64,000 bases of DNA. Origin: Arthrobacter sp. zg-Y844 (GTDB lineage: Bacteria; Actinomycetota; Actinomycetes; Actinomycetales; Micrococcaceae). The notes beneath the pieces are model-generated. The model did no database searches. It saw nothing but the letters and a program-made list of their open reading frames with translations, and was not told the DNA's origin. Location of the stretch: positions 806,001-870,000 of the forward strand of contig NZ_JANFLS010000002.1 of the NCBI RefSeq assembly GCF_024385465.1, given 5' to 3'. Shown here one piece after another: positions 3,258-26,156 of this stretch; position 1 is the first letter of the stretch; each line of letters starts with the position of its first letter. The position numbers and the translations under genes are program-made.

Positions 3258-4544
<1,287 letters not shown>

Positions 4545-4847
4545 AGAAAACCTTTCATACGGCGGGTTGTGGCACCGCCATTGGGGGCAACACCACTATG
4601 ACCCTGTCAAGTCCGTGATTCTATCCAAGTGTTTCGGTTTGGCTTGCTCTGAATAGAACACGCCGTGCCGGTGTATTGTTCCGCTGGCCACAAGGACTGG
4701 CAGTTCAAAGGACACTTGATACACGAACCCGACCGGGTCTCGGTTCCCATTGTCGCACGTTTTCCGTCCCGCCACAGCACCGGCGCACGTTATCGGCACA
4801 CTCCGCGGGCCTGTTCCGCCGTGCGGCTTTTCCCCGCCGGTTCTCTT
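4545..4847 (-). promoter_or_regulatory. Upstream region of sigA, with a candidate promoter
   Basis: 303 bases between the DUF4192 gene and sigA hold no gene that I can see. On the minus strand a good -10 hexamer TAGAAT lies at 4618-4623, which would give a leader of about 65 bases. A TTGACA at 4605-4610 has no matching -10 at normal spacing. Assignment of the real sigA promoter is uncertain. Confidence 0.4.
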
Positions 4848-6185
4848 TCAGCACCGGTTCATCGGGGTCTCGGGCCAGCCGTCCGCCGTGCCCGGCCACG
4901 ACCCGTCCCGGGAGCCGGTCCAGTCCGGGAGGATTCCCGTACCCAGCAGTTCGCGCAGCAGCAGCGCCAGGCGGTAGCCGGGGCACGCCTCGAGCGCGTG
5001 CTGCAGATGGACGTGGGCACGCGAGCCGCGCCCCCTGGCCCACTCCATCCAGGCCAGCAGCGAAAGCAGCGCCGCCTTGGCATCTTCGTCCGCGGCGGGC
5101 ACGAGGTCCGAGAAAACGGCGTACGCCCGGTCCAGCAGGCTCCAGTCCGGGGCACCCCCTCGGCCCACCAGGATGCTGCGGAAGTCCGCAGCTGCCTTGG
5201 ACTGCCTTCGAGGGCGCGGCAGCAGGGGAACGACGCCGGATGCTGCCGCTCCGCGATCTGCGGAACCGGGAAGGACCACGGGGTGGACCTGCCGGCGGAC
5301 CAGGCCGTTGGCCTCTGCGCCGTAAACGGCGGCGGCTTGGCCCGCAGCAGTCAGGACCAGCAGGGCATCACGGATCCCGCGGTCAGAGAGGCTCGCCAGG
5401 AGAAACCCGGCACATTCGGGATCGCGGTGCAACGGGTTCCGGGAACCGGCGAACGGCTCGAACGCGTCTTCCGCATACGGTTCAGCACCCGTATCGAGGA
5501 CGCCGCCGGCAAAACAGTTTCCCCATAGCTCCAGGGTGCGGTGGAACTGGTCCCGTTCACACCAATGCGCACCCACCTGTTCCCCAAAGCGTGCCCGGTT
5601 GTCCGCAACCTCGCCCTTGTTGGGCCACTGCAGCGGGAAAGACTCCCCCACCGCCCTTTCCAGCGACGCGGCAAAGGCACTTCCCCGGTACACCAGTTCC
5701 GTGTTCAGCATGCTGTCCGCAATCTGCGACCTGGGCGCCCCCGGCCAGGGGCAGCAGTCCGGTTGGGTGCAGAAATAGTCCCGCCAGGTGTCCGGCCCGA
5801 CCAGCCAGCCATCCTGCAGCGGGATGCCGGCGGCGGCCAGGTCCTTCCCAAGGCGGCGGACCAGCGGCCGGTAGGGCGGATGCGCCGGGTCCTTCCAGGT
5901 CCGGTCCGTATACAGTGCCAGCAGCACGCCGTCAGCCTCGGTGTCGGCGGCCATGAACCGGCAGGCCGCGGCGGCATAGGCGGCATTCGCTCCGGCTTTG
6001 GCTCCCGGCCCCGGAGGCAGGTCCAGCCGCAGCGTCGCACCGAGCCGGCCGCCGCATAATGCCATCAGCACCAGGGACTCGCGCGGCTCGAAGCCCAGCG
6101 TGTGGGGAACCAGGCTGAGGATGTCCGCCGGAGCGTTGATGCGGTAGGGGTTGCGCGGGGTGCCGTCGGCCGGTTCTGTGCTCAT
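4848..6185 (-). CDS. DUF4192 domain-containing protein
   Basis: 445-residue cytoplasmic protein of the actinobacterial DUF4192 family, function unknown. The family signature is clear at the N-terminus: INAPADILSLVPHTLGFEP, then ESLVLMAL. There is no signal peptide or obvious catalytic motif. The same frame stays open upstream to 6563, but that part is Arg/Pro-rich and overlaps the ABC permease frame, so the ATG at 6185 is taken as the start. The C-terminal 150 residues look helical and tetratricopeptide-like (repeated LLxLLAWMEWARG-type stretches), which is only an impression. Confidence 0.8.
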   Translation of the reverse strand: MSTEPADGTPRNPYRINAPADILSLVPHTLGFEPRESLVLMALCGGRLGATLRLDLPPGPGAKAGANAAYAAAACRFMAADTEADGVLLALYTDRTWKDPAHPPYRPLVRRLGKDLAAAGIPLQDGWLVGPDTWRDYFCTQPDCCPWPGAPRSQIADSMLNTELVYRGSAFAASLERAVGESFPLQWPNKGEVADNRARFGEQVGAHWCERDQFHRTLELWGNCFAGGVLDTGAEPYAEDAFEPFAGSRNPLHRDPECAGFLLASLSDRGIRDALLVLTAAGQAAAVYGAEANGLVRRQVHPVVLPGSADRGAAASGVVPLLPRPRRQSKAAADFRSILVGRGGAPDWSLLDRAYAVFSDLVPAADEDAKAALLSLLAWMEWARGRGSRAHVHLQHALEACPGYRLALLLRELLGTGILPDWTGSRDGSWPGTADGWPETPMNRC

Positions 6186-6275
6186 GGCCCAAGGGTCCCC
6201 GGGAATCCGCGGTCGCTGCAGAGCAGGCCCGGGGCATGTGCATCCGGCGCCGGCTGAGCCGCCGCGTCGGCAGCC

Positions 6276-6301
6276 GTGGAGGAAGAGTGGAGGAAGAGTG
6301 G
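6276..6301. repeat. 12-bp tandem repeat in the gap before the DUF4192 gene
   Basis: GTGGAGGAAGAG occurs twice in direct succession (6276-6287 and 6288-6299), followed by another GG. It lies between the permease stop (6353) and the DUF4192 start (6185). No function is evident. Confidence 0.7.
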
Positions 6302-6352
6302 CCGGGTGCAACGCGGGCCGGCAGGCATGCCCGCCCGCCAGCCACGGAGAGG

Positions 6353-7108
6353 TCACTTCCAGCGGAAAACCTTCGCGGCCGGCACCGCGCATGCAACGGT
6401 CCAGACGAGCATCACGAGGAAGGGGGCAACCGTCACGGTTCCTCCGTACCAGGCGGCGGTCAGCGCCTGGGTCATGGCACCGAGCGGGGTGAAAGACGCA
6501 ACCTGCCGGACGCCTTCCGGCATCAGCGGCCCGGGCGTCCATAACCCGGCGGTGAACATGCACCCCATAAACACCAGGAATCCGATGCCGTAGGCGTTCT
6601 GGGCGGTCCCGGCGAGGGCGGCAATGAGTGATCCCACGGCCATCATGGCAGCAACACCGAAAACCACCACGAGGACAACCACTCCGGGACTGCCCGGCAT
6701 CCGACTGTCAAAGACAACCCTGGCGAGCAGGACGGTGACGGTCACCGCAACGGCGAGCGCTGCGCCGCTGACGATCCATTGGGCAAACAGGATGCGGTGC
6801 GCGCCGACGGGCGTCACGCCCAGCCGGCGCAGCACGCCGGTCTCCCGGTAACCGCTGATCGCGGACGGATAATTGGTCACCGCCACACTGGCCAGTGCCA
6901 CCGCTATGGACAGCGGCACGAGCAGGTCAATGGGGCGCAGGGCCGCATAGACGGGATCCGTGCCTCCCAGCGGGACCCGCGTGTTGGGAATGACGAAGCC
7001 CTGGAGCAGCAGAATGGCCGAGGGCAGCACCAATGCCATGAAAATGCTCACCGGATTGCGCAGATACAGCGTCGCTTCCGTGCGCGTCAGGGCTCCCAGC
7101 GCCCGCAT
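6353..7108 (-). CDS. ABC-2 type exporter permease
   Basis: 251-residue integral membrane subunit of a drug/lipid-type ABC exporter. About six hydrophobic segments are visible, for example ILLLQGFVIP near the N-terminus, LLVPLSIAVALASVAV, VVLVVVFGVAAMMAVGSLIAAL and a last one near the C-terminus. The motif YRETGVLRRLGVTP in the first cytoplasmic loop is typical of DrrB/ABC-2 permeases. The ATG at 7108 is used; the open frame extends to 7315 but overlaps the ATPase gene with implausible sequence. It starts 16 bases after the ATPase stop codon, so the two form an operon. The substrate cannot be predicted. Confidence 0.85.
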   Translation of the reverse strand: MRALGALTRTEATLYLRNPVSIFMALVLPSAILLLQGFVIPNTRVPLGGTDPVYAALRPIDLLVPLSIAVALASVAVTNYPSAISGYRETGVLRRLGVTPVGAHRILFAQWIVSGAALAVAVTVTVLLARVVFDSRMPGSPGVVVLVVVFGVAAMMAVGSLIAALAGTAQNAYGIGFLVFMGCMFTAGLWTPGPLMPEGVRQVASFTPLGAMTQALTAAWYGGTVTVAPFLVMLVWTVACAVPAAKVFRWK

Positions 7109-7124
7109 GCTCCACCTCTCCCCT

Positions 7125-7892
7125 TCAATCGGCTGCCGCCTGCTCGATGAAGGCCAGATACGCATCCTCCAGAGCACCGGGCTCGGCGGCGTTCCTGCCG
7201 GAAACGGCGAGCAGTTCCGCCGGCGTGCCCACGAACCGTGTCCGGCCGGCGTCGATAATCGCCAAGCGGTCGCAGAGGCGTTCGACGTCGTCAAGGTAGT
7301 GGGTGACGAGGACAACCGTGATGCCGCCGTCCTTCACCCGTTGAATCAGCTGCCGCACATCGCGCCGGCCCTGCGGGTCCAGCCCCGTGGTCAACTCGTC
7401 GAACACGACGACGTCGGGATTGCCGATGAGCGCGAGGGCAATCGACAGGCGCTGCTTCTGCCCGCCGGAAAGCTTGCCGAAGGGGCGTTTGCGGTGTTCA
7501 TGCAGCCCGACGGTGCGCAGCAGCTCCGGCACATCGGCAGGCGCAGGGTAGAAAGCGGCAAACAGCCGCAGCGCCTCCTCCACGCGCAGGGCGGGAGGCA
7601 GGGCGGCGGCCTGGAGCTGATAGCCGACACGCTCACGCACGGTTGCCCGGTCAGCCGCGGGATCCACGCCCAGCACGGTGACGCGTCCGCCGTCGGGCCG
7701 CAGCGTGCCGGCCACACACTCCACCGTGGTGGTCTTGCCGGCGCCGTTGGGACCGAGAATTCCGAAGGCTTCACCGGCGTCGATCGAAAAGGTGACGTCC
7801 TCGAGCGCCGCGATACGCCGGAACGCCTTGGATATCCCGCTCACGCTAACCACCGTGCCGGCAGGCACCTGTGCCCTGGTCATGCGGATCAT
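7125..7892 (-). CDS. ABC exporter ATP-binding protein (DrrA-like)
   Basis: About 255 residues with a complete ABC ATPase core: Walker A GPNGAGKTTT, signature LSGGQKQR, Walker B VVFDELTTGLDP and a switch His in LVTHYLDD. It powers the permease encoded immediately downstream. The start is uncertain: ATG at 7892 and ATG at 7883 are both possible, and neither has a strong ribosome site; 7913 is a longer alternative. The long-chain DrrA/CcmA type suggests export of a drug or lipid. Confidence 0.88.
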   Translation of the reverse strand: MIRMTRAQVPAGTVVSVSGISKAFRRIAALEDVTFSIDAGEAFGILGPNGAGKTTTVECVAGTLRPDGGRVTVLGVDPAADRATVRERVGYQLQAAALPPALRVEEALRLFAAFYPAPADVPELLRTVGLHEHRKRPFGKLSGGQKQRLSIALALIGNPDVVVFDELTTGLDPQGRRDVRQLIQRVKDGGITVVLVTHYLDDVERLCDRLAIIDAGRTRFVGTPAELLAVSGRNAAEPGALEDAYLAFIEQAAAD

Positions 7893-7940
7893 TTTGGCGG
7901 CGGGGCCGCACAAGGGTCAAGGGTGAAGGGTGCCGCGCTG

Positions 7941-9284
7941 CTACTGCGGACCCTGACCGCCGCGTTCCCCGCGGCGGCGCTGCCGTTCGCGGGCCAGCGC
8001 TGCACGGAGCGGCGGCAGCGGGGATCCTTCATCGGCCAGCCGCGAGCGGATCAGCCCCCGGGTCCGGAGGATGCCCGCGACGCCTACCGCCATCACGGCA
8101 AACTGGACGGACAAGGCGATGCGGAAGGAGTCCAGGGCGTACAGGTTTCCCCCTGAAAAGCCGCTGTTGTTCAGCACGTCCAGCACCACGCCGATCAGGT
8201 ACATGCTGACCAGCGAGGCAATGAAGCCGCCGATGTTCACAATCCCGGTGGCTGTTCCCAGCCGGGCGCTGGGGTTGTACGTCCGGGCAAAATCGAACCC
8301 GATCATGGAGCCGGGACCGCCGACGGCAAGCAGCGCCACGAGGAGGACCAACAGCCACAGCGGCGCCGGACCGGGATATAGCAGCACGGCCGCCCACCCG
8401 GCCGCCATGGCGCCGGCGATCAGCAGCACCATAGTCGACCGGCGCAGCGGATGCCTGCCAACCCAGGACCCCATCCACGGTCCGCAGACAATCGCGACCA
8501 CCACGAAGAAGGTCATGAGGCCCGACGCGACGGCGGAAGACACGCCTTCGGCACTGACCAGGTACGGGAAGCCCCACATCATCACGAACACCGTGCCGGG
8601 GAACTGCACGGTGTAGTGGGTCCACATGCCCAGGCGCGTCCCGGGCTGGGCAAACGCCTCCGCCAGCGACGTGCCTGTCTGCCGCAGCGGCAGCGGGACG
8701 GGGGCTTCGCCGCCCTCGGGCCGGTTCCGCACGCAGGCCAGGGTCAGGACCAGGGCAAGCAGGGACAGCGAGGCCGCGGAGACAAACGCCGTGCTCCACC
8801 CGAAGCGGTGCAGCACATAGGCGAAAGGAATGGCGCTGGCAATCTGCCCCAGCTGGCCGACGATGCCGGTGTACTGGGTCAGGACGGGGATTTTCCTGCC
8901 GGAGAACCAGGCCGGAAGCAGCCGCAGCACGGAGATGAAGGTGAGGGCGTCGCCGGCGCCCACCAGGGAGCGCCCGAGGATGCCGGCGCCGACGGAATCG
9001 GCGGTAGCCAGCTGGAACTGTCCGGCAAGCATCAGTGCCGCTCCGCCGGCGATCAGCAGCCGCGGGCCGAAGCGGTCCACCAGCACCCCTACGGGTATCT
9101 GCAGCCCCGCATAGACCAGCAGCTGCACCACCGTAAAGACGGACAGGACGGACGCAGTCGCGGAGAAGCGTTCAGTGGCTTCGATGCCGGCCACGCCGAA
9201 TGAGGTCCGCTGGGTCACCGCCACCATGTAGGCAAAGACGCCTACGCCCCAGACAATCCAGGCCCGTGTTCCGTTCACCGGCAC
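7941..9284 (-). CDS. Major facilitator superfamily transporter
   Basis: 447-residue membrane protein with roughly twelve hydrophobic segments split by a central loop around residues 195-215. The MFS loop 2-3 signature is visible as GVLVDRFGPR. An IVGQLGQIAS stretch is the expected fifth-helix region. The C-terminus is charged (QRRRGERGGQG). Start GTG at 9284; no strong ribosome site. Substrate unknown: no neighbouring pathway gene helps. It lies just upstream of the ABC exporter pair on the same strand with a 48-base gap, so co-transcription is possible. Confidence 0.85.
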   Translation of the reverse strand: MPVNGTRAWIVWGVGVFAYMVAVTQRTSFGVAGIEATERFSATASVLSVFTVVQLLVYAGLQIPVGVLVDRFGPRLLIAGGAALMLAGQFQLATADSVGAGILGRSLVGAGDALTFISVLRLLPAWFSGRKIPVLTQYTGIVGQLGQIASAIPFAYVLHRFGWSTAFVSAASLSLLALVLTLACVRNRPEGGEAPVPLPLRQTGTSLAEAFAQPGTRLGMWTHYTVQFPGTVFVMMWGFPYLVSAEGVSSAVASGLMTFFVVVAIVCGPWMGSWVGRHPLRRSTMVLLIAGAMAAGWAAVLLYPGPAPLWLLVLLVALLAVGGPGSMIGFDFARTYNPSARLGTATGIVNIGGFIASLVSMYLIGVVLDVLNNSGFSGGNLYALDSFRIALSVQFAVMAVGVAGILRTRGLIRSRLADEGSPLPPLRAALARERQRRRGERGGQGPQ

Positions 9285-16891: not shown

Positions 16892-17197
16892 ATGAACCTC
16901 ACTCCCAAGGAAATAGACAAACTCTACATATACCAAGTGGCGGATTTGGCCCGTAAGCGGCGCGAGCGGGGAACCAAGCTCAATGTCAGCGAGGCCACCG
17001 CCCTCATCTGCGAGGCGATCCTGGAGGGTGCCCGCGACGGCCGGACCGTCGCAGAGGTGATGGAACTCGGTAAGACCATCGTCTCTGAAAGCCAGTGCAT
17101 GGACGGCGTCCGTGAACGGCTGCCCCTCCTGCAGGTCGAGGCGACTTTCGCCGACGGCAGCAAGCTGGTCTCCTGTCACGATCCCATCGGGGTGTGA
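16892..17197 (+). CDS. ureA: Urease gamma subunit
   Basis: 101-residue small structural subunit of urease, which hydrolyses urea to ammonia and carbamate. It begins MNLTPKEIDKLYIYQVADLA and contains LNVSEATALI and TIVSESQCMDGV, all typical. Length matches the usual 100. The ATG at 16892 follows an AAGGTGAAGG ribosome site; the longer frame from 16772 is rejected. First gene of a nine-gene operon. Early codons include ATA and CAA, which are rare in this genome and hint at a different origin. No GlnR box was seen upstream; a weak -10 TACGAT is near 16860. Confidence 0.97.
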   Translation: MNLTPKEIDKLYIYQVADLARKRRERGTKLNVSEATALICEAILEGARDGRTVAEVMELGKTIVSESQCMDGVRERLPLLQVEATFADGSKLVSCHDPIGV

Positions 17198-17198
17198 C

Positions 17199-18095
17199 TT
17201 GACCTGGCCCATCGAGCCGGGTGTGACGGTGGTACTGGTCGGAGGACATGAGAGCGGCAACGGAGCGGATCTGTCCTTTGTCAGGGCTTCCCTTCCGGGG
17301 GCTCTCATTACCCCCGCCGGACGACCGCTGCACAATGTCCTTACTCGGCTGCGTGCGGACAGGGCCGACGGAGCGGACCCCGCACCCGTCGTCGTGCTGC
17401 CGCTGACCTTCGGCCGCAACCCGACACTTGTTGCGGACACGGCGAAGACCCTCCGCTGGCTGGGAGCCGGTGCAGTCCCGCGCGGTGCCGCCTCGGCCCC
17501 GCTGGCCCTGGCCGACGAATTCGGCACCGGCGACCATCTCACGGCTTGGCTTCGGGCCGCCGCCGTCGAGGTGCGCAGGCAGTCCCCGGAGGCGGCAGTG
17601 CTGATCGTCGGGGACGCCGCCAATCCTTTCGATGACGCCGAGCTCTACCGCATCGCGCATCTGGTGCGCACGAACGGGGCCGGCAACCTCGTGGAGGTTG
17701 CCACTGTCAACGACGCGGATGCGCTCCTGGAGGCCGTACGACGGCTGGGTCTGCTCGGCAGCACGGAGACGGTGGTTGTTCCCGGAGGATTTCGGCGGGT
17801 GCCGACCGTGCACGGCGAAACGGTGCCCTTCGGCGAGGGAGATTTCACCCAAGCCAGGTTCTACGGTGCACTCATGAGCGAGCAGGCGGTGCTTCGCGTC
17901 ATCGGCGAGCGTGTTCGCGACGCACTGCACAACCTCAGCCACGGCTCCACCGGTATTGACGCCGGACTGCAGGCTGATCACGGTCACGGTTACGCCCACT
18001 CACACGCCTTTGACGCGGACAACGGCCATTCCCACAACCACGGGGCGGCCGACGGCCATCCGCATCACCACCCTGTCCCGATCCGCTCGAGTTGA
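17199..18095 (+). CDS. CbiX/SirB-like protein with a His-rich C-terminal tail, inside the urease operon
   Basis: 298-residue protein between ureA and ureB. Residues 9-250 resemble two halves of the CbiX/sirohydrochlorin-chelatase fold: VTVVLVGGHESG at the N-terminus stands where chelatases have a HGSR metal site (H17), then PVVVLPLTFGRNPTL where a second metal histidine is usual, then AAVLIVGDAANPFDDAELY. Residues 261-291 carry 11 histidines among Gly, Asp and Ser. Such tails bind nickel in UreE, HypB and some chelatases. Nickel permease and urease genes adjoin, and no ureE is present, so a nickel carrier, store or insertion factor is inferred. TTG at 17199 overlaps no codon of ureA but follows GGGG by a few bases; GTG at 17223 is an alternative start. 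Confidence 0.75.
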   Translation: MTWPIEPGVTVVLVGGHESGNGADLSFVRASLPGALITPAGRPLHNVLTRLRADRADGADPAPVVVLPLTFGRNPTLVADTAKTLRWLGAGAVPRGAASAPLALADEFGTGDHLTAWLRAAAVEVRRQSPEAAVLIVGDAANPFDDAELYRIAHLVRTNGAGNLVEVATVNDADALLEAVRRLGLLGSTETVVVPGGFRRVPTVHGETVPFGEGDFTQARFYGALMSEQAVLRVIGERVRDALHNLSHGSTGIDAGLQADHGHGYAHSHAFDADNGHSHNHGAADGHPHHHPVPIRSS

Positions 18096-18155
18096 CCGCA
18101 AATCCCATCCAAACGCCACGTGCAGCGACGCTGCGCCGCAAGGGAAGGAAATACC

Positions 18156-18602
18156 ATGCTGGGCAGCCCCACCTACCACCACAAGCAAGAAGACATCGAG
18201 ATCAACGCCGGCAGGCCGAGCGTCACACTGCTGGTGAGCAACACCGGCGACCGGGCCGTGCAGGTCGGCTCTCATTTCCACTTCTTCGAAACCAACAAGG
18301 CGCTTCTGTTCGAACGCGAACTGGCGTACGGAATGCACCTCGATGTGCCGGCGGGTACCGGAATCCGGTTCGAGGCCGGCGACACCCGGGAGGTGACGCT
18401 CACCGCGTACGCCGGCAACCGGCGAGTCATCGGCTTCAATAACCTCGTCGACGGCGGCCTCGACTCTGCGGCCACGAAGATCCGTGCCATGGCGCGGATG
18501 AAGGAACTCGGATTCCAGGACGGAAAACCGAGCTCCAAACCCAGTGCAAACAACGCGGGCCCTGCAGCGCAAACGGGCCGCCCGGAAGAGGGGAAGAAGT
18601 GA
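18156..18602 (+). CDS. ureB: Urease beta subunit with a C-terminal extension
   Basis: 148-residue structural subunit. The core, residues 13-102, is typical: [32 protein letters not shown], and [14 protein letters not shown]. UreB is usually about 101-125 residues, so the last 45 residues (Lys, Ser, Pro and Ala-rich) are an extension of unknown role. The ATG at 18156 follows AAGGGAAGG. The stop codon overlaps the ureC start by one base (TGATG), indicating translational coupling. Confidence 0.96.
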
Positions 18603-20326
18603 TGGCGAAAATCTCGCGCAAGCAGTATACCGATCTCTTTGGTCCGACCACCGGCGACCGGGTCCACCTGGCCGATTCGAATCTGGTGATCGAGATCGAG
18701 AAGGATTACAACGAGGGCCATTACGGTGACGAGGTGGTCTACGGCGGCGGCAAGACCGCACGCGACGGCATGGCGGCCGATCCCCAGGCGACTTCCGCGG
18801 AAGGCGTGCTTGACCTGGTGATCACCAACGCAATCATCCTGGACCCGGTGCTGGGTGTCATTAAGGGCGACATCGGCGTGCGTGACGGCAAAATCGCCGG
18901 TATCGGCAAGTCCGGCAACCCGCACACCCAGAGCGGAGTGGATCCGCGCCTGGTGGTTGGCCCCGGAACCGAACTGCTGGCCGGCGAGCACTTCATCGCC
19001 ACCCCCGGCGGCATCGACTCACACGTGCACTACATTTCGCCGGAACAGGCGCTGGCCGCCCTCTCCAACGGCATCACGACCCTCTTCGGCGGCGGCACGG
19101 GACCCACCGACGGCACCAACGGCGTCACCACGACTCCGGGCGTCTGGAATCTCGCCAGACTGCTGGAATCGGCCGAAGGGAGTCCGGTCAACATGGGCTT
19201 CCTCGGCAAGGGGAACGGCTCGCTGCCCGATGCCCTGATAGAACAGGTCGAGGCCGGCGCCTGCGGACTCAAGGTACACGAGGACTACGGCACGACGCCG
19301 GCTGCGCTCAGCAACGCACTCTCCGTGGCCGATGACTACGACGTGCAGATCTCGGTGCATACAGACAGCCTCAACGAGGCCGGTTATGTGGAGAACACCC
19401 TTGACGCCATCGACGGCCGCACCATCCACACCTTCCACACCGAGGGTGCCGGCGGCGGCCACGCCCCGGACATCATCAAGGTGGCCGGCCACCCGAACGT
19501 GCTCCCGTCTTCGACGAACCCGACCCTGCCCTACACCGTCAATTCGGTGGATGAGCTGCTCGACATGGTGATGGTCTGCCACCACCTCTCCCACGACGTC
19601 CCCGAAGACGTCGCCTTCGCGGATTCCCGCGTACGGGCCGAGACGATTTCCGCGGAGACGGTTTTCCACGATGAAGGGATCATTTCGATGGTCTCGTCCG
19701 ACTCCCAGGCAATGGGTCGCATCGGCGAATCGTTTATGCGCACCTTCCAGATCGCCCACCACTGCAAGGACCAGCGCGGCCCGCTGCCGGAGGACAGCGG
19801 CGACAACGATAACTTCCGGGTGCTGCGCTTCCTCGCCAAGATCACGATCAACCCGGCCATCACCCAGGGCGTGTCCGACTACATCGGCTCGCTGGAAGAG
19901 GGAAAGATCGCCGATATCGTGCTCTGGCCGATCCAATCCTTCGCTGCCAAGCCCCGGCTGATCGTCAAGGGAGGCCTGATCAACTGGGCATTGATGGGAG
20001 ATCCGAACGCCTCGCTGCCCACCCCGCAGCCGGTGTTCTACCGCCCTATGTTCGGCGCGCAGGGCAAGGCGCTGCAGAGCACGCGGGTGACGTTCATGTC
20101 GAAGGCGGCTATCGACAAGGGCGTACCGGAGCAGCTCGGGCTGGAGAGCCAGGTGCTGCCGGTGCACCGCTGCCGCGGCATCGGCAAGGAGCACATGGTC
20201 CGCAACAACGCGACGCCGGTGATCGAGGTGGACCCGGAGACATACGACGTGACATACAACGGCACGCTGGCCACCATCCCGCCGGCCCAGTCCCTGCCGA
20301 TGACCCAGCTGTTCTTTCTCGCCTAG
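18602..20326 (+). CDS. ureC: Urease alpha (catalytic) subunit
   Basis: 574 residues. All active-site elements are present: nickel-binding H141 and H143 in [11 protein letters not shown], carbamylated lysine K224 in [11 protein letters not shown], the [14 protein letters not shown] segment, the flap C326-H327 in [13 protein letters not shown], and metal ligand D367 in [12 protein letters not shown]. Length is close to the usual 567-572. The ATG at 18602 is preferred to the GTG one codon earlier because it overlaps the ureB stop. Active enzyme needs nickel and carbon dioxide delivered by the accessory proteins encoded downstream. Confidence 0.98.
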
Positions 20327-20335
20327 GGCCGCGGC

Positions 20336-21025
20336 ATGTCGGATGTTCGCCAGTTGCTGACGAGCCTGCAGTTCGCGGACTCGGCCTTTCCCAGCGGCTT
20401 CTACACGATGTCGCACGGGCTCGAGGGATACAGGCAGGCCCGGCTCGTGTCCGGTGACGGAGTGCAGCAGCTGCTGGCCGAGCTGCTGCTGCACTCCGTC
20501 GGCCCCGGGGACGCAACGGCGCTTGCTGCTGCGCACCGCGCCGCGGCAGGCGGCGACGTCGACCTCGTGCAGGAGGTCGACCAGCGGTTGTTCGCCTCGA
20601 AACTGAACGCCGAAATGCGCACCGCCTCCGTACGCAGCGGCCACCAGCTGATCGATCTTGGCGCCGAGTTGACTGAGCACGCACTGCTCGGTGAGTACGC
20701 AGAGCGGGTGAAGCTGCGCAGCACACCCGGCTGCCAGCCAGTCGCGGCGGCGGTGGTGTATGCGGCCAACGGAGTCACAACCCGGCAGGCCGTGGCATCG
20801 GACCTGTTCGCCTTCTCGGCGAGCTTCGTCGGGGCGGCCCTTCGGCTGCGGCTGACCGACCACCGCCAGGCGCAGGCCATCCTGCTGCAGACATCCCCCG
20901 TCATGGAGCAGGTGACGGAGGCCGCCCTGGCGCGCGATCTCGCTGACCTTGGCGGCTTTGCGCCCATGGCGGACGTTATGTCAGCCCAGCATGAGAGAGC
21001 CGAGGCCCGCCTGTTCGCCAGCTGA
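20336..21025 (+). CDS. ureF: Urease accessory protein UreF
   Basis: 229-residue all-helical activation factor that forms the UreD-UreF-UreG complex on apo-urease. Typical LLTSLQFADSAFPSGFYTMSHGLEG at the N-terminus is visible in part (LQFADSAFPSG). Length is standard. The start lies 9 bases after ureC, with only a weak ribosome site, so its translation is probably coupled to ureC. Confidence 0.94.
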   Translation: MSDVRQLLTSLQFADSAFPSGFYTMSHGLEGYRQARLVSGDGVQQLLAELLLHSVGPGDATALAAAHRAAAGGDVDLVQEVDQRLFASKLNAEMRTASVRSGHQLIDLGAELTEHALLGEYAERVKLRSTPGCQPVAAAVVYAANGVTTRQAVASDLFAFSASFVGAALRLRLTDHRQAQAILLQTSPVMEQVTEAALARDLADLGGFAPMADVMSAQHERAEARLFAS

Positions 21026-21109
21026 GGGCGGCACTCCGGACACGAAGAATGAAACGGCGCCGATGGGTGCCCACACGAACACAGCAGATCCACTGGAAAC
21101 GAGGAATTC

Positions 21110-21745
21110 ATGAGTGAGAACGTATTGAGGATCGGCATCGGCGGGCCCGTGGGCAGCGGCAAGACGGCGCTGACGGAGGCGCTGGTGCCGCTGTTGATCG
21201 AGGCGGGGCGCACCCCCGGCGTCATCACCAACGACATCTATACCCAGGAGGATGCCCACCACGTGCGCAGGGAGCTGGCCGGCATCCTCGACCCCGAGCG
21301 AGTGGTGGGTGTCGAGACCGGTTCCTGTCCGCATACAGCCGTGCGCGACGACCCGACCATGAACCTGGCCGTCGGCGCGGAGATGCTCGAACGGTTTCCC
21401 GACATCGACACGCTCATTTACGAGTCCGGCGGCGACAATCTGACGCTCACCTTCTCCCCGGCGCTTGCCGATGTGTTCGTGTTCGTGCTCGACACCGCTG
21501 AAGGCGAGAAGATGCCGCGCAAGCGCGGTCCCGGCATCACCGACAGCGACATCCTGGTGATCAACAAGATCGACATCGCGCAGTACGTCCGCACCGACCT
21601 CAACGTGATGGAGTCCGACGCACACCGGGTACGTGAGGACCGGCCGGTGGTGCTGACCAATTCACTCACCGGGTTCGGCGTCGATGAACTCCACCAACAA
21701 ATCATGTCGCATTGGAACGGTGCCAGAACCGAGCTCATCGGATGA
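21110..21745 (+). CDS. ureG: Urease accessory GTPase UreG
   Basis: 211-residue SIMIBI GTPase whose GTP cycle drives nickel delivery into urease. P-loop GPVGSGKT at 12-19; metal-binding C73-P74-H75 in ETGSCPHTAVRDD; ESGGDNLTLTFSP; NKID in VINKIDIA. The residue before Cys is Ser where many UreG proteins have Gly. There is no N-terminal His-rich stretch, so UreG itself does not make up for the missing UreE. ATG at 21110 follows GAGGA. Confidence 0.97.
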   Translation: MSENVLRIGIGGPVGSGKTALTEALVPLLIEAGRTPGVITNDIYTQEDAHHVRRELAGILDPERVVGVETGSCPHTAVRDDPTMNLAVGAEMLERFPDIDTLIYESGGDNLTLTFSPALADVFVFVLDTAEGEKMPRKRGPGITDSDILVINKIDIAQYVRTDLNVMESDAHRVREDRPVVLTNSLTGFGVDELHQQIMSHWNGARTELIG

Positions 21746-22839
21746 CGCTCAAAGCGACGGAACAGCGAAGTGTGCCGGCACCCGGAGGCAACACCGCGGC
21801 GGGTGAGAGCGGGCTTGCGGGCGTGACCCCTCTCCCCCGTCCACCGGTTCCCCGCAACGCGGGCCGGACGGGCCCGGGCACGGGTGGCTACCGACTGGAT
21901 CCGGCGTTTTATGAGCCTGGCCGTGCGCCTGCCGAAATGCGGCGGCACACCCAGGAAGAGTGGAAGAATCTGCCCGTCGGCAGCCCGGGCAAAGTCGGCA
22001 TCCTGCAGCTCGGGTTCGCCTGCAACCGGGGCCGAACCGAGCTGGTGCAGCACTACCAGAAGTCACCGTTGCAGATCATGCATCCGCTCTATTTCAACCC
22101 GCTGCGCCCCGACATGGCTTACACCTACCTGATGTCCTCGGGCGGCGGCATTCTGCAGGGAGACCGGCTGCGCACCGATTTGACCTTCGGCCCCGGCACT
22201 TCGGCGCACGTCACCACTCAGACCCAGACCAGGGTCTACCGCATGGACCACGACTACGCCTCCGCGCTGATGAACATCACGGTCGAAGAAGGCGCACATG
22301 TGGAGTACCTGCCCGAGCCCGTGGTGCCCTTCGCCGCTTCGCGATACTACCAGCAGACATCAGTGGTGATCGATGAGTCGGCTACCTTGCTGCTCGGCGA
22401 CACCATGTACGCGGGCAGGCTCGCCCGCGGCGAGCGGCACGCCTACGATGTGTACGCCTCCGACCTCGAGGTGCGGCGGCCGGACGGCCGTCTGGTTGCC
22501 CTCGACCGGGTTCGGCTCAGCCCGGGAGCGGGAGCCCACGGAGCGGTCTCCGGGGTCAGCGGGCTAGGCGTGCTTGCCAACCACGATGTGCTCGCCATGC
22601 TGTACGTCTTCACGCCCCTTGTTCCGGCGGCCCAGCTCGCTGATACCCTGCACCGTGCGCTTGGCGAAAGCGGCGGCGACCTGATCTTCGGGGTGAGCAC
22701 GTTGCCCGGTGATGCCGGCGTGTGGATGCGCCTGGTGGGCAACGACACCGTAGCTGTGGCGGCCGCAAACACGGCCGCAGCATCGGCGGTACACGAGTTG
22801 CTGACCGGGAAGCAAGCACCCGCGATTCGAAAGAGCTAG
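21742..22839 (+). CDS. ureD: Urease accessory protein UreD/UreH with an N-terminal extension
   Basis: 365-residue scaffold that docks on apo-urease and channels nickel. The UreD core begins near residue 82 (GKVGILQLGFACNRGRTELV) and includes SSGGGILQGDRL, TTQTQTRVYRM and YLPEPVVPFAASRYYQ. UreD is usually 270-290 residues; the Pro/Gly-rich first 80 residues are extra. The ATG at 21742 overlaps the ureG stop (ATGA), so the two are coupled. Starting further in would still leave a long leader segment. Confidence 0.93.
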   Translation: MTLKATEQRSVPAPGGNTAAGESGLAGVTPLPRPPVPRNAGRTGPGTGGYRLDPAFYEPGRAPAEMRRHTQEEWKNLPVGSPGKVGILQLGFACNRGRTELVQHYQKSPLQIMHPLYFNPLRPDMAYTYLMSSGGGILQGDRLRTDLTFGPGTSAHVTTQTQTRVYRMDHDYASALMNITVEEGAHVEYLPEPVVPFAASRYYQQTSVVIDESATLLLGDTMYAGRLARGERHAYDVYASDLEVRRPDGRLVALDRVRLSPGAGAHGAVSGVSGLGVLANHDVLAMLYVFTPLVPAAQLADTLHRALGESGGDLIFGVSTLPGDAGVWMRLVGNDTVAVAAANTAAASAVHELLTGKQAPAIRKS

Positions 22840-22853
22840 AGAGGGGTCTAAGG

Positions 22854-24047
22854 GTGAGTGAACAAGCGAACACGCAAGAGAAGGCTGTGGCCCCGGGGCG
22901 CTCCTACCGTGCGCAGGTGGTGCTCGCCTTCATCCCGGTCGCGCTGTTGCACATCGCGGGCTTCGGACTGTTCTTCTTCCTGGTCGAACCGCTGCATCTG
23001 CAGCTGGGCTCCTCGGTCTTCGGGGTTGGTATCGCCGTGGTGGCCTACGTCCTCGGCGTACGGCACGCCTTCGACGCCGACCACATCGCTGCGATAGACA
23101 ACACCACCCGCAAACTGGTGGACCTGCGCAGGCCGGCCGCCGGGGTCGGATTGTTCTTCTCCCTGGGGCACTCCACCATTGTGTTTCTGATGGCCGCGCT
23201 TCTGGCACTCGGGGTGAGCTGGGCCGTGGGGCTCAGCGATGACGGCAACGAGGTGCGCAACGGCCTCGGTGTCTTCGGTACGGTCGTCTCCGGAGTCTTC
23301 CTGCTGCTCATCGGACTCATCAACGCCGTCGCGTTCATCGGAATCCTCAAGGTCTGGCGGGCCTCGCGCAATGGCGACCTCGACCAGCTGGAGCTGGAGC
23401 GGCACCTGCAGGGCCGCGGCCTCATCAGCCGCCTTATCCGGCCGATGCTTCGTACCATCGACCGCCCGGGGAAGATGTATGCCGTTGGCTTTTTGTTCGG
23501 GCTCGGCTTCGACACCGCCAGCGAGATTGCCCTGCTGGTGCTGGCCGGAACCGGGGCAGCGACGGGGCTTCCCTGGTATGCCATCCTCTGCCTGCCCCTG
23601 ATCTTTGCCGCAGGCATGAGCCTGTTCGACACGCTCGATTCAGCCATCATGGTGAAAGCCTATGGCTGGGCGAGCGTCAACGCGGTGCGCAAGCTGTACT
23701 ACAACCTCACCATTACCGGGCTCTCAGTCATGATTGCCGTCATGATCGGTGGCATTGAGCTGGTCGGGTTGCTGAATGAGAAGCTCGGGCTCCAGGACCC
23801 ACTCACCGGGTGGGTAGCCGCCATCGACCTGGAGAACGTGGGCTACATTGTCGTGGCCACGCTGATACTGGTCTGGTTGACCTCTACCGCCTACTGGCGG
23901 TTGGGCCATGTGGAGGAACGATGGGCGCTGGCAGGCGGCGGGGCGGGCACACCTGGCGGCGCAACCGCGCCCGGCGGGCCGGAGTTGAGGCAGAGGCCTG
24001 GAAAGGACGCGCCGCCTGAGGACGCCCCGCCAAAGGAGCAAGCATGA
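22854..24047 (+). CDS. nixA: NiCoT-family nickel permease (NixA/HoxN type)
   Basis: 397-residue membrane permease that imports nickel for urease. The metal signature RHAFDADHIAAIDNTTRK (HX4DH) is in the second helix region. LGHSTIVF and LGFDTASEIALL are the other NiCoT signatures. About eight hydrophobic segments are present; the C-terminal 45 residues are Gly/Pro-rich and cytoplasmic. The GTG at 22854 is chosen because GAGGGG lies upstream and ureD ends at 22839. Cobalt transport cannot be excluded from sequence, but urease context favours nickel. Confidence 0.93.
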   Translation: MSEQANTQEKAVAPGRSYRAQVVLAFIPVALLHIAGFGLFFFLVEPLHLQLGSSVFGVGIAVVAYVLGVRHAFDADHIAAIDNTTRKLVDLRRPAAGVGLFFSLGHSTIVFLMAALLALGVSWAVGLSDDGNEVRNGLGVFGTVVSGVFLLLIGLINAVAFIGILKVWRASRNGDLDQLELERHLQGRGLISRLIRPMLRTIDRPGKMYAVGFLFGLGFDTASEIALLVLAGTGAATGLPWYAILCLPLIFAAGMSLFDTLDSAIMVKAYGWASVNAVRKLYYNLTITGLSVMIAVMIGGIELVGLLNEKLGLQDPLTGWVAAIDLENVGYIVVATLILVWLTSTAYWRLGHVEERWALAGGGAGTPGGATAPGGPELRQRPGKDAPPEDAPPKEQA

Positions 24048-24973
24048 GCAGCGCCGGTGCGGCCTCGCCGAACCCATCCATCTCGAGTGCAGGCTGGCTG
24101 AAGGGCTGGGGCCAGGGGCTGTCGCAGATCTTCTTCCAGAGCAATATCTACACAGCGTTGCTGATTCTGGCCGCCTTCGTTGTCGCGGACTGGCGCATGG
24201 CCGTGCTCGTGCTGATCGGCTGTGCGGGAAACACGGTGGGAGGGCGCCTGCTCAAGGCCGATTCATCCTCAGTGACATCAGGCCTGGAAGGTTTTTGCGG
24301 CGCCCTTGTTGGGGCTGCGACGTTCTCAACCATTGGGGGTCAGTGGGCGGCGTATCCTATCGCGCTCATCGGCGGCTTGCTCTGTGCCCCGGTGACGTGG
24401 CTGGTGGTTGCGCTGTTCACCAAGACACCGCTGAGGGTGTTCTCCCTGCCGTCCACGACGGCACCGTTCTGCATCGTGGCGACGGGCATACTGCTCAGCA
24501 CGGAGGCACTGCACGTGACCTCGGCGCCGTCGGCCACCATCGATTCCGAACCGCTCGCCTTTGCACGCTCCCTGCTGACGAATGTGTCAGAGGTGGTGCT
24601 GGTCAACAACGTCTGGTCCGGCGCCCTCATCCTGCTCGGCCTGTTCGTTGCGAGCTGGAAGGTGGGGCTGGCCGGGTTGCTGGGCAGCGTCGTGGGCAGC
24701 TTGTGCGCCCTGGCAATGGGAGAGGCCCTAACCGAGACGGCCAACGGCCTTGCCGGCTACTCCGGTGTACTCACCGCGATTGCACTCGCCGTGGTCTTCC
24801 TCCGCAGCAGCACGCTCTCCTGGGTTCTGGCCGTGATCGGAACGGTGGTCACTGCGGTGGTGACAGTGATCATGCATGATCTTTCAGCTCCCACCTACAC
24901 CTGGCCGTACATCCTCACCACGTGGGTGTTCCTGGTCATCGCCCATTACATTCCCGCAGCCAAGCGCCCATAA
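24044..24973 (+). CDS. yut: Urea transporter (UT/Yut family)
   Basis: 309-residue channel-like urea transporter. The family pattern is visible as GLSQIFFQSNIYTALL, CAGNTVGGRLLK, and a duplicated half beginning near SEVVLVNNVWSGALILLG. About ten hydrophobic segments alternate with short loops. Its ATG overlaps the nickel permease stop (ATGA), so it is the last gene of the operon. It brings external urea to the cytosolic urease. Confidence 0.9.
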   Translation: MSSAGAASPNPSISSAGWLKGWGQGLSQIFFQSNIYTALLILAAFVVADWRMAVLVLIGCAGNTVGGRLLKADSSSVTSGLEGFCGALVGAATFSTIGGQWAAYPIALIGGLLCAPVTWLVVALFTKTPLRVFSLPSTTAPFCIVATGILLSTEALHVTSAPSATIDSEPLAFARSLLTNVSEVVLVNNVWSGALILLGLFVASWKVGLAGLLGSVVGSLCALAMGEALTETANGLAGYSGVLTAIALAVVFLRSSTLSWVLAVIGTVVTAVVTVIMHDLSAPTYTWPYILTTWVFLVIAHYIPAAKRP

Positions 24974-25028: not shown

Positions 25029-25406
25029 TTACACCGAGGCGCCCACCCAGAGGCCAAGCACGGCGGCCGCCACTGAGAGCACCAGCATGACGATACCGCT
25101 GATGAAGGATGCACCGTAGCGGCCCTCCTTAATCAACTGCACCGTCTCGTAGCTCGCGGTGCTGAAGGTGGTGTAGCCGCCGAGGAAGCCGGTCCCGATC
25201 ACGATACTGAGGTCGGTCGACACAAAGTGCTCGATGGTGAGGCCGGTGAGCAGGCCGAGCACCACGGAACCGGAGACGTTGATGATGGTTGTTGCCCAGG
25301 CAAACCGCGTCTTGAGGTGCGCGCGGATGAGTCCGTCAATGACGAACCGCACCGTTGCACCTATCCCGCCGGCCAGCGCCAGCAGCAGGAAAATTCCAGG
25401 GGTCAT
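25029..25406 (-). CDS. crcB: Fluoride channel CrcB/Fluc, subunit 1
   Basis: 125-residue four-helix fluoride channel subunit. GGIGATVRFVIDG and GFLGGYTTFSTASYETV match Fluc signatures, including the polar TTFS track. Its start overlaps the end of the second crcB by four bases, so the two are co-translated and probably form a heterodimer. It is convergent with the urea transporter gene. Confidence 0.92.
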   Translation of the reverse strand: MTPGIFLLLALAGGIGATVRFVIDGLIRAHLKTRFAWATTIINVSGSVVLGLLTGLTIEHFVSTDLSIVIGTGFLGGYTTFSTASYETVQLIKEGRYGASFISGIVMLVLSVAAAVLGLWVGASV

Positions 25407-25858
25407 GAAGCATCCTCCTGCTTATGCTGCGGGTCCGAGCCGCGGGCGTGGAGACCGCTTGCGGCGGCGATGCCCGCCCAAGTGGCGCAGGCACCGACGA
25501 TCACCGTGCCGAGGGCGTAGATTATGGCGGTCCAGGGAAAACCGTCGCGAAAGAGTACAGCGGTGTCGGTGGCCAGCGAGCTGTATGTGGTGAAGCCGCC
25601 GCAGAAACCGGTACCGAGCAGCAGTTTGAGGTTCTTCCCTGTCGGACCGGACCTGTCCAGGCGAGTGACAGCCTCGTAGAGGTAGCCGAGCAGAAAGGCA
25701 CCGACCACGTTGATGATCGGGATTGCCACCGGCACTTCACCGAGGTTCGGTATGACCAGGGACAGGCCCTCGCGGCTGGCGGCACCGGCTCCGCCTCCGA
25801 GGGCGACAAGTCCGATGGGGCCCCAGCGCAGGTATTGTGGGCGCATTCCGGTACTCAT
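25403..25858 (-). CDS. crcB: Fluoride channel CrcB/Fluc, subunit 2
   Basis: About 151 residues, four hydrophobic segments, with GGGAGAASREGLSLV and GFCGGFTTYSSLATDTA. The C-terminus ends in a charged tail with HARGSDPQHKQED. Start is uncertain: ATG at 25858 has AAGGA directly adjacent, ATG at 25846 has it at a longer distance, and the open frame reaches 25921. No fluoride riboswitch was recognised upstream. Confidence 0.88.
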   Translation of the reverse strand: MSTGMRPQYLRWGPIGLVALGGGAGAASREGLSLVIPNLGEVPVAIPIINVVGAFLLGYLYEAVTRLDRSGPTGKNLKLLLGTGFCGGFTTYSSLATDTAVLFRDGFPWTAIIYALGTVIVGACATWAGIAAASGLHARGSDPQHKQEDAS

Positions 25859-26156
25859 TCCTTGCTTCGAGGATAGGTGGCCCCCGGCATCGGCGCGGGC
25901 TGATTGGCAGGCCACGTGCACGGGTTGCCCGGGGCCACGCCTAAGAATAAGGCGTTATGTCGTGGGGAATCAGGGGAAAAGACCCGTTTTTGAGGTTACT
26001 CCTGCCTTTTCCCGCCTTCAACGGCCGGCAGGCCTAGATCCACTGTGCGGCGCCGATTGGGTCTGTCTCCGCCCGCCGCGTTCCCTGACCGGGCGCCGTC
26101 CGGATCGGCCCGGACCGCTGGTGCAGCGGTCCGGGCCGATCAACCGGGTGTGGTGA
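25859..26156 (-). other. Intergenic region between the tricorn gene and the crcB pair
   Basis: About 298 bases with no gene I can support. It contains the hairpin at 26103-26141 and an A/T-richer block near 25940-26010 that could include the crcB promoter, but no convincing hexamer pair was found. Confidence 0.5.
26103..26141 (-). terminator. Perfect 17-bp hairpin after the tricorn protease gene
   Basis: Arms 26103-26119 and 26125-26141 are fully complementary with a GGTGC loop, 16 bases past the stop. No T run follows on the minus strand, so it is a U-less terminator candidate. Confidence 0.75.

Follow-up and report, generated by a model that had tools for sequence, protein, structure and literature searches.

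One genome comparison (PMC2770081) reports several genomes that contain ureG without ureE and a histidine (His) stretch on UreG in all but two of these. The His tract of UreG from M. tuberculosis, Streptomyces and plants is thought there to replace UreE. Here we describe a urease operon of Arthrobacter sp. zg-Y844 that has neither UreE nor such a tract. It lies in a stretch of 64,000 nucleotides (contig NZ_JANFLS010000002.1, positions 806,001 to 870,000; referred to as the window), and between its ureA and ureB genes it contains an additional gene, here called X, whose product ends with 11 histidines within 31 residues (residues 261-291). Comparison of operons and genomes indicates that X fills the place held elsewhere by UreE or by the His tract of UreG. 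We consider it rather probable that X serves a single urease lineage as a dedicated nickel metallochaperone, deriving from a chelatase and playing the role that UreE has elsewhere.

X shares with UreE its location in a urease operon, the His-rich C-terminus and the company of a UreG without His tract. It differs from UreE by the absence of the UreE_N and UreE_C domains, by its larger, two-lobed body of the CbiX type and by its site between ureA and ureB instead of ureC and ureF, where the UreE operons of this family have ureE. A profile match over both lobes and the N-terminal active-site histidine connect X to the class II chelatases CbiX-L, SirB and CfbA. In contrast to these proteins, X has lost the second histidine and the glutamate ligand, has no CDxC motif and was found only with urease genes. 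Its tail resembles the His-rich tails of many actinobacterial CbiX proteins and of B. megaterium CbiX-L, which is proposed to serve metal storage and delivery and is dispensable for insertion (PMC7689651). Similar to the His-extended UreG proteins, the X operons encode a His tract, but it is carried by a protein of its own, UreG having none. A separate or terminal His-rich segment for a nickel enzyme is also a feature of HypB and of CooJ, the latter belonging to carbon monoxide dehydrogenase. The folds of HypB and CooJ are unrelated to that of X, and we know of no other His-rich nickel accessory protein, these two included, that derives from a chelatase. No description of a CbiX-type gene in a urease operon was found in the open-access literature searched.

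Absence of UreE and of a UreG histidine tract from X operons

Neither UreE_C (PF05194) nor UreE_N (PF02814) gave a match in the whole genome of strain zg-Y844 (3.37 Mb, listed as 100% complete), and the UreE-bearing relatives G032 and G106 matched clearly in the same UreE_N search. The lack of ureE, which a preliminary description of the window had noted for the operon, holds for the entire genome. UreE_C was found in 103 of 245 sampled genomes of the family, with no match in the 17 members of this genus. UreE_C was likewise absent from the 22 X genomes tested, and a search of 27 X genome records for UreE_N found none; two of these records (G798 and L048) probably represent one strain.

The genome harbors a second urease operon, ureABCFGD, on contig C4 (L023; G000:C4:65000-82000, minus strand, about 4031-8650), which also lacks ureE as well as X and has a nickel permease gene nearby on the opposite strand. 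Its UreG ends in the His-rich sequence PHFHADEDGGFVHAHGDEDTVHQH, and a UreG His tail was present in all ten operons of this second type that were read in the genus (L023-L032). Urease genes were found in 13 of the 17 genus members of the family sample: four possess both operons, six only the second one and three only the X operon. In the last three (G002, G016 and G022), where the X operon was the only urease found, there was neither a UreE_C match nor a UreG His tract.

The position of the histidines was then compared in a survey of the class, which comprised 109 urease stretches among the urease-alpha matches listed, from the best down to E 1e-45, with the two operons of this genome excluded. 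Within this set, 103 stretches contained neither X nor UreE, five were UreE operons and one was an X operon. UreG was found in 84 of the operons with neither gene and carried a His tract in 78 of them, located at the C-terminus in 27 and at the N-terminus in 51 (in seven of the latter only if a longer start is assumed). No tract was seen in the five UreE operons or in the X operon. These numbers rule out that every UreE-less operon has X; most of them do without X because UreG itself carries a His tract in most cases. The expectation that X recurs in other UreE-lacking operons was therefore not borne out as such, although most of the operons without it possess the UreG tract. Nineteen of the 109 stretches gave no UreG. 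Five of these are about 7 kb or shorter, and 15 come from one family, f36, which was hardly tested. The f36 stretches without UreG beside ureABC are L157, L160, L161, L167, L170, L171, L175, L177, L181, L182, L188, L189, L191, L194 and L195; their ureG either lies elsewhere or was missed.

Over all loci a UreG His tract was counted in 0/26 X operons, 0/11 UreE operons and 87/100 operons with neither gene (Fisher p 1e-17; the X rows form one clade, so they are not 26 independent cases). The X count omits L043-L046 and L051, among which L043 (G012) is no repeat of a counted locus, and its UreG is also devoid of a His tract. Seven of the 13 neither-operons scored as lacking histidines gain them with a start further upstream; among the other six, L141 has an in-frame upstream His-rich stretch and three lack a clear start. 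UreG of the X operons starts eight to nine residues ahead of the P-loop motif and has no extension.

Distribution and genomic location of X

In a sample of 59 genomes, X was detected in 14 of the 28 that belong to this genus and in none from other genera. A scan of named genomes yielded 21 X loci, all between ureA and ureB, from Arthrobacter (5), Rhodococcus, Oerskovia, Microterricola, Sanguibacter, Humibacter, Mumia, Nocardioides, Cellulomonas, Streptomyces (5), Antrihabitans and Catenulispora (2). Comparison of gene order across actinobacteria covered 36 operon loci (the window, L033-L040, L043-L063, L198, L224-L227 and L233). X separates ureA from ureB in every one of them, and UreE accompanied it in none of the genomes tested. 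Thirty-one of these loci are distinct, because four among L043-L063 come from genomes already represented in L033-L040 and L224 is a duplicate of L048. A 37th X is located on a plasmid of Embleya sp. NBC_00896 (L234) together with ureB, with no ureA or ureC nearby, and is probably the remnant of a lost operon. X was found solely beside urease genes.

The preliminary description had placed X in the position of ureE. This is ruled out, since all nine UreE operons of the family that were read have ureE between ureC and ureF, whereas X lies between ureA and ureB. A differing gene order displayed for L229 is an artefact of overlapping frames.

The gene is rare: by our judgement of the hits, two of 296 class genomes (G000 and G418) contain it. 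The X profile touched 44 of the 296 genomes. Among the remaining hits, those examined resemble proteins of the CbiX or SirB type, and some were left unread. In a separate search, a weak hit in G206 (E 9e-4), resembling what we take to be a regulator, was regarded as chance. Most X loci had been found through X itself. A search of 396 order genomes with UreD, which is blind to X, returned five close matches (at least 291 bits, this genome included), all five with X. The next match, G607 (L228; 221 bits), is without X. Of four weaker matches three were read (L229-L231), and these three carry UreE.

Relationship of X to class II chelatases

X of the window alone gave no Pfam match under E 0.23, no NCBIfam match and nothing useful in the PDB; in particular, neither Pfam nor NCBIfam reported a UreE domain. 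The designation as CbiX-like, proposed from the single sequence, is supported at the level of the family profile and not by the window protein by itself. An alignment of 21 family members displayed two lobes, with the CbiX-like lobes of the window protein spanning about residues 10-248, and the motifs GGHES, GRxLHN, PMTxGR(N/D)P, DHLxxWLR and NPF(D/E)DAEL. The Pfam family CbiX (PF01903) was touched by 12 of the 21 members at E-values up to 1 (best 1.6e-5) and was not reached by window X itself. In hhalign comparisons the X family scored 98.2% over 217 columns, covering both lobes, against 14 actinobacterial CbiX proteins, which had themselves been found with the X profile; with the tail removed the score was 97.4%. 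The controls, nine unrelated protein families encoded in the same urease operons, scored 0.1-4.5%, and UreE proteins 0.2%. One of the 21 X members touched the NCBIfam UreE model PRK13262 (E 5e-4), presumably through its His tail. Profile searches of the PDB with X returned no chelatase, and their best hit was a de novo TIM barrel matched via repeated short segments. In an AlphaFold2 model built from 13 sequences strands and helices alternate; the best of five models reached a mean pLDDT of 73.6, and residues 262-298, which comprise the tail, remained under 50.

The metal ligands of SirB are given as His10, Glu43 and His76 (PMC11301274). The equivalent of His10 is H17 of X, which is invariant in 21/21 proteins. 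The column aligned with His76 is occupied by T, V, S, G, K, R or E, and none of the 21 proteins has a histidine in alignment columns 70-77 or a glutamate in columns 36-42, the place of Glu43. X has kept one of the three metal ligands of class II chelatases. The C-terminal CDxC of CbiX, which was taken as an iron-sulfur site, is present in 12 of the 14 CbiX proteins used, and no CxxC or CDxC motif exists in the 21 X proteins. With two of three chelatase metal ligands gone, the earlier suggestion that nickel is delivered from a chelatase-like site is weakened. Invariant residues, among them H17, R73, H113 and R119, are spread over the body of X, and position 74 is either N or D.

Ordinary actinobacterial CbiX proteins (L073, L077-L081, L083, L084, L087 and L091-L093) carry the CDxC motif followed by 7-16 histidines, with the exception of L087.

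The profile comparisons indicate that the X family is a distant CbiX relative. Probably, the tail of X was inherited from CbiX-L and the function as a chelatase was lost.

Conservation of the histidine tail

The TTG start codon of X was found at the equivalent site in 14/14 genus members, and the distance between ureA and X ranges from -4 to 17 nt (17 loci). The probability of one stretch like the His tail is about 6e-11 at the His frequency of the neighbouring proteins, 2.3%. H261, H263, H267, H269, H279 and H281 are invariant in 13 genus sequences, as are H287 and H289 in 11 of them (L005 and L011 omitted). Both CAC and CAT are used in seven of these eight invariant columns (11 genus sequences), and the median ratio of nonsynonymous to synonymous substitution rates among 11 genus members is 0.20 for the whole of X and 0.19 for the tail. 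The tail is held by purifying selection. The last 60 residues contain 8-21 histidines in one set of 17 X proteins and 13-22 in a second set of four.

Organization of the urease operon in the window

The operon (16892-24973, + strand) has the order ureA-X-ureB-ureC-ureF-ureG-ureD-nicT-urea transporter gene. All urease genes other than ureE named in the preliminary description were identified by Pfam at their places, as were the NicO/NicT nickel permease and the urea transporter. NCBIfam cut-offs were passed by ureA, ureB, ureC, ureG and the nickel permease; ureF and ureD had no NCBIfam match. The features are as follows.

16892..17197, + strand: ureA, urease gamma subunit (PF00547, E 2e-40)
17199..18095, + strand: gene X, predicted CbiX-derived protein with His tail, 298 aa; TTG start 1 nt past the ureA stop
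17979..18071, + strand: His tail of X, residues 261-291, 11 His (His count, conserved columns, dN/dS, the substitution rate ratio given above)
18156..18602, + strand: ureB, urease beta subunit, ATG preceded by AAGGGAAGG (PF00699, E 6e-40)
18602..20326, + strand: ureC, urease alpha subunit (NF009686, 934 bits, over cut-off)
20336..21025, + strand: ureF (PF01730, E 1e-33)
21110..21745, + strand: ureG, starting with MSENVLRIGIGGPVGSGK, without N- or C-terminal His tract (TIGR00101, 239 bits, over cut-off)
21742..22839, + strand: ureD, inferred ATG start, overlapping the ureG stop (PF01774, E 3e-52)
22854..24047, + strand: nickel permease, NicO/NicT, inferred GTG start (PF03824, E 6e-88; TIGR00802 over cut-off)
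24044..24973, + strand: urea transporter (PF03253, E 9e-60; TIGR03441 below cut-off)

The motifs for active-site residues, which we assign as the usual nickel ligands, the carbamylated lysine and the flap cysteine, were located in UreC of the window. Because they are present, the urease looks functional. Just downstream of the urea transporter gene two adjacent genes of the CrcB family, presumably a family of fluoride exporters, are encoded on the minus strand (25029-25921). The one Rfam match in the window, 5_ureB_sRNA (51.8 bits; 18763-19058, minus strand), is antisense to ureC and may merely reflect conserved coding sequence; no riboswitch was detected in the window at Rfam gathering thresholds.

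In the related Arthrobacter sp. Helios (citreus group), an expression study lists ArtHe_04130 (gamma), 04140 (beta), 04145-04160 and 04170 (urea transporter) as 4- to 9-fold down under drought induced by polyethylene glycol, and a second urease set falls as well (PMC9608346). ArtHe_04135, the number between gamma and beta, is absent from the genes listed; it is probably X.

Phylogeny of UreC

UreC proteins of the X operons formed one side of a branch both in a tree with 26 X rows (FastTree support 100) and in a tree with 30 (Shimodaira-Hasegawa-like approximate likelihood ratio test, 99). The former omits as repeats L024 (same species), L043-L046 and L051, plus UreC pieces shorter than 450 residues. 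The latter also holds ten UreE rows (three long ones were dropped), L228 and a random draw of 28 others. Here L228, which is without X, is the sister of the X clade on a long branch. The trees do not place the UreE operons nearest to the X operons: the tree with 26 X rows, the larger of the two overall, groups the UreE rows of the family with rows that have neither gene (support 81). In the 30-row tree the X, UreE and neither groups meet at one node; their order depends on the root, and none was inferred. The position of Rhodococcus CH91 beside Arthrobacter in the tree and a plasmid copy in Streptomyces NBC_01237 suggest horizontal transfer.

Proposed function of X

That X does the job of UreE, as had been proposed from the sequence of the window, is the best reading because X operons are those whose UreG lacks a compensating His tract. 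X is also a fixed part of its operon and was never found together with UreE in the genomes tested. The scarcity of HypB, which does not pass its cut-off in 18 of 22 X genomes, speaks for this reading as well. Nickel donation, which includes nickel binding, docking on UreG and the direction of transfer, is the part that we infer. According to this proposal, X would descend from a CbiX-type class II chelatase with two lobes and would have kept the fold and a flexible His-rich tail while losing two of three metal ligands and the C-terminal cysteine motif. Nickel would be imported by NicT, and several Ni(II) ions would be gathered by the disordered tail. The lobed body would dock either on UreG, which is a GTPase, or on the complex of UreG with UreF, UreD and apourease, and nickel would be handed to UreG, which would insert it during GTP hydrolysis. 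A more specific version can be offered tentatively as quite possible: a tetrapyrrole chelatase may have turned into a protein-to-protein nickel metallochaperone, in which the body (H17, H113, R73 and N/D74) would be the site of UreG docking and hand-over and the tail a nickel antenna, and which would have spread as a unit among actinobacteria.

Several observations weigh against a metallochaperone function. The confidence of the five AlphaFold models of X varies widely (mean pLDDT 38.8 to 73.6), and His tails exist on ordinary CbiX proteins as well, so that the tail alone is not specific. In each of four comparisons X is the least identical of the nine operon proteins, which one would not quite expect if it docks on one constant partner. 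Its identity is 73% between the window and G018 (L038), where UreC has 99% and UreB about 99%, and 89% between the window and G012 (L043), where UreB and UreC have about 99%. This gap reflects either unusually fast change of X or an exchange of ureBC between lineages. Furthermore, X forms one clade and represents one evolutionary event, and its link to UreG does not amount to many independent tests. HypB was over cut-off in four of 22 X genomes, this one not among them. L228 has neither X nor a UreG His tract, and UreE_N is absent from its genome. Up to 6/84 survey operons are without X, UreE and UreG tract in the stretch read, a figure that refers to this stretch alone. Ureases like that of L228 may mature without a His carrier, and these cases suggest that some urease operons do not encode such a carrier.

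The operons without a His carrier in the stretch read also speak for the alternative that X is a nickel store or buffer of a cell with high urease content, with free nickel imported by NicT reaching UreG directly. The same role is reminiscent of the B. megaterium CbiX-L tail, for which storage and delivery are proposed and which is unneeded for insertion (PMC7689651). We regard such a store as unlikely, though the strongest of the alternatives, since a plain store does not need a conserved two-lobed body, and the invariant residues of X lie throughout that body. Less probable still is an aid in assembly or folding of the urease apoprotein, X being translated between the gamma and beta subunits and its tail being secondary; the constant location between ureA and ureB, so close to the end of ureA, fits this idea, but it leaves both the His tail and the missing UreG tract of just the X operons unexplained.

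A working sirohydrochlorin chelatase for siroheme, B12 or a nickel tetrapyrrole, placed in the urease operon by chance, would agree with the CbiX homology and with the lack of a PF01903 match anywhere in this genome. We judge it very improbable: none of the 21 X proteins has an equivalent of His76 or Glu43, CDxC is missing, and X was seen only in the neighbourhood of urease genes. Moreover, 14 of 22 X genomes have a separate PF01903 match (the match of a 15th, G291, coincides with its X locus). Hardly credible, finally, is a dispensable X with another protein (HypB, SlyD) as His carrier, since HypB, the one of these two that the analysis covered, which has been proposed for Frankia CcI3 and Bradyrhizobium japonicum (PMC2770081) and which is over cut-off in the four X genomes mentioned, is not over cut-off in the other 18 of 22, this one included, and is ruled out as a general substitute.

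UreE-less ureases are common in the class survey, and the X family represents a clean class of exceptions to the rule of a His-bearing UreG, one with a candidate donor. The rule, which already has listed exceptions, Frankia CcI3 among them (PMC2770081), is extended by the X operons. If X acts as a nickel metallochaperone, it would be a third way of supplying nickel to maturing urease, alongside UreE and the His-extended UreG. A chelatase would then have crossed over to metallochaperone function and would provide an unexpected scaffold for a His-rich nickel metallochaperone.

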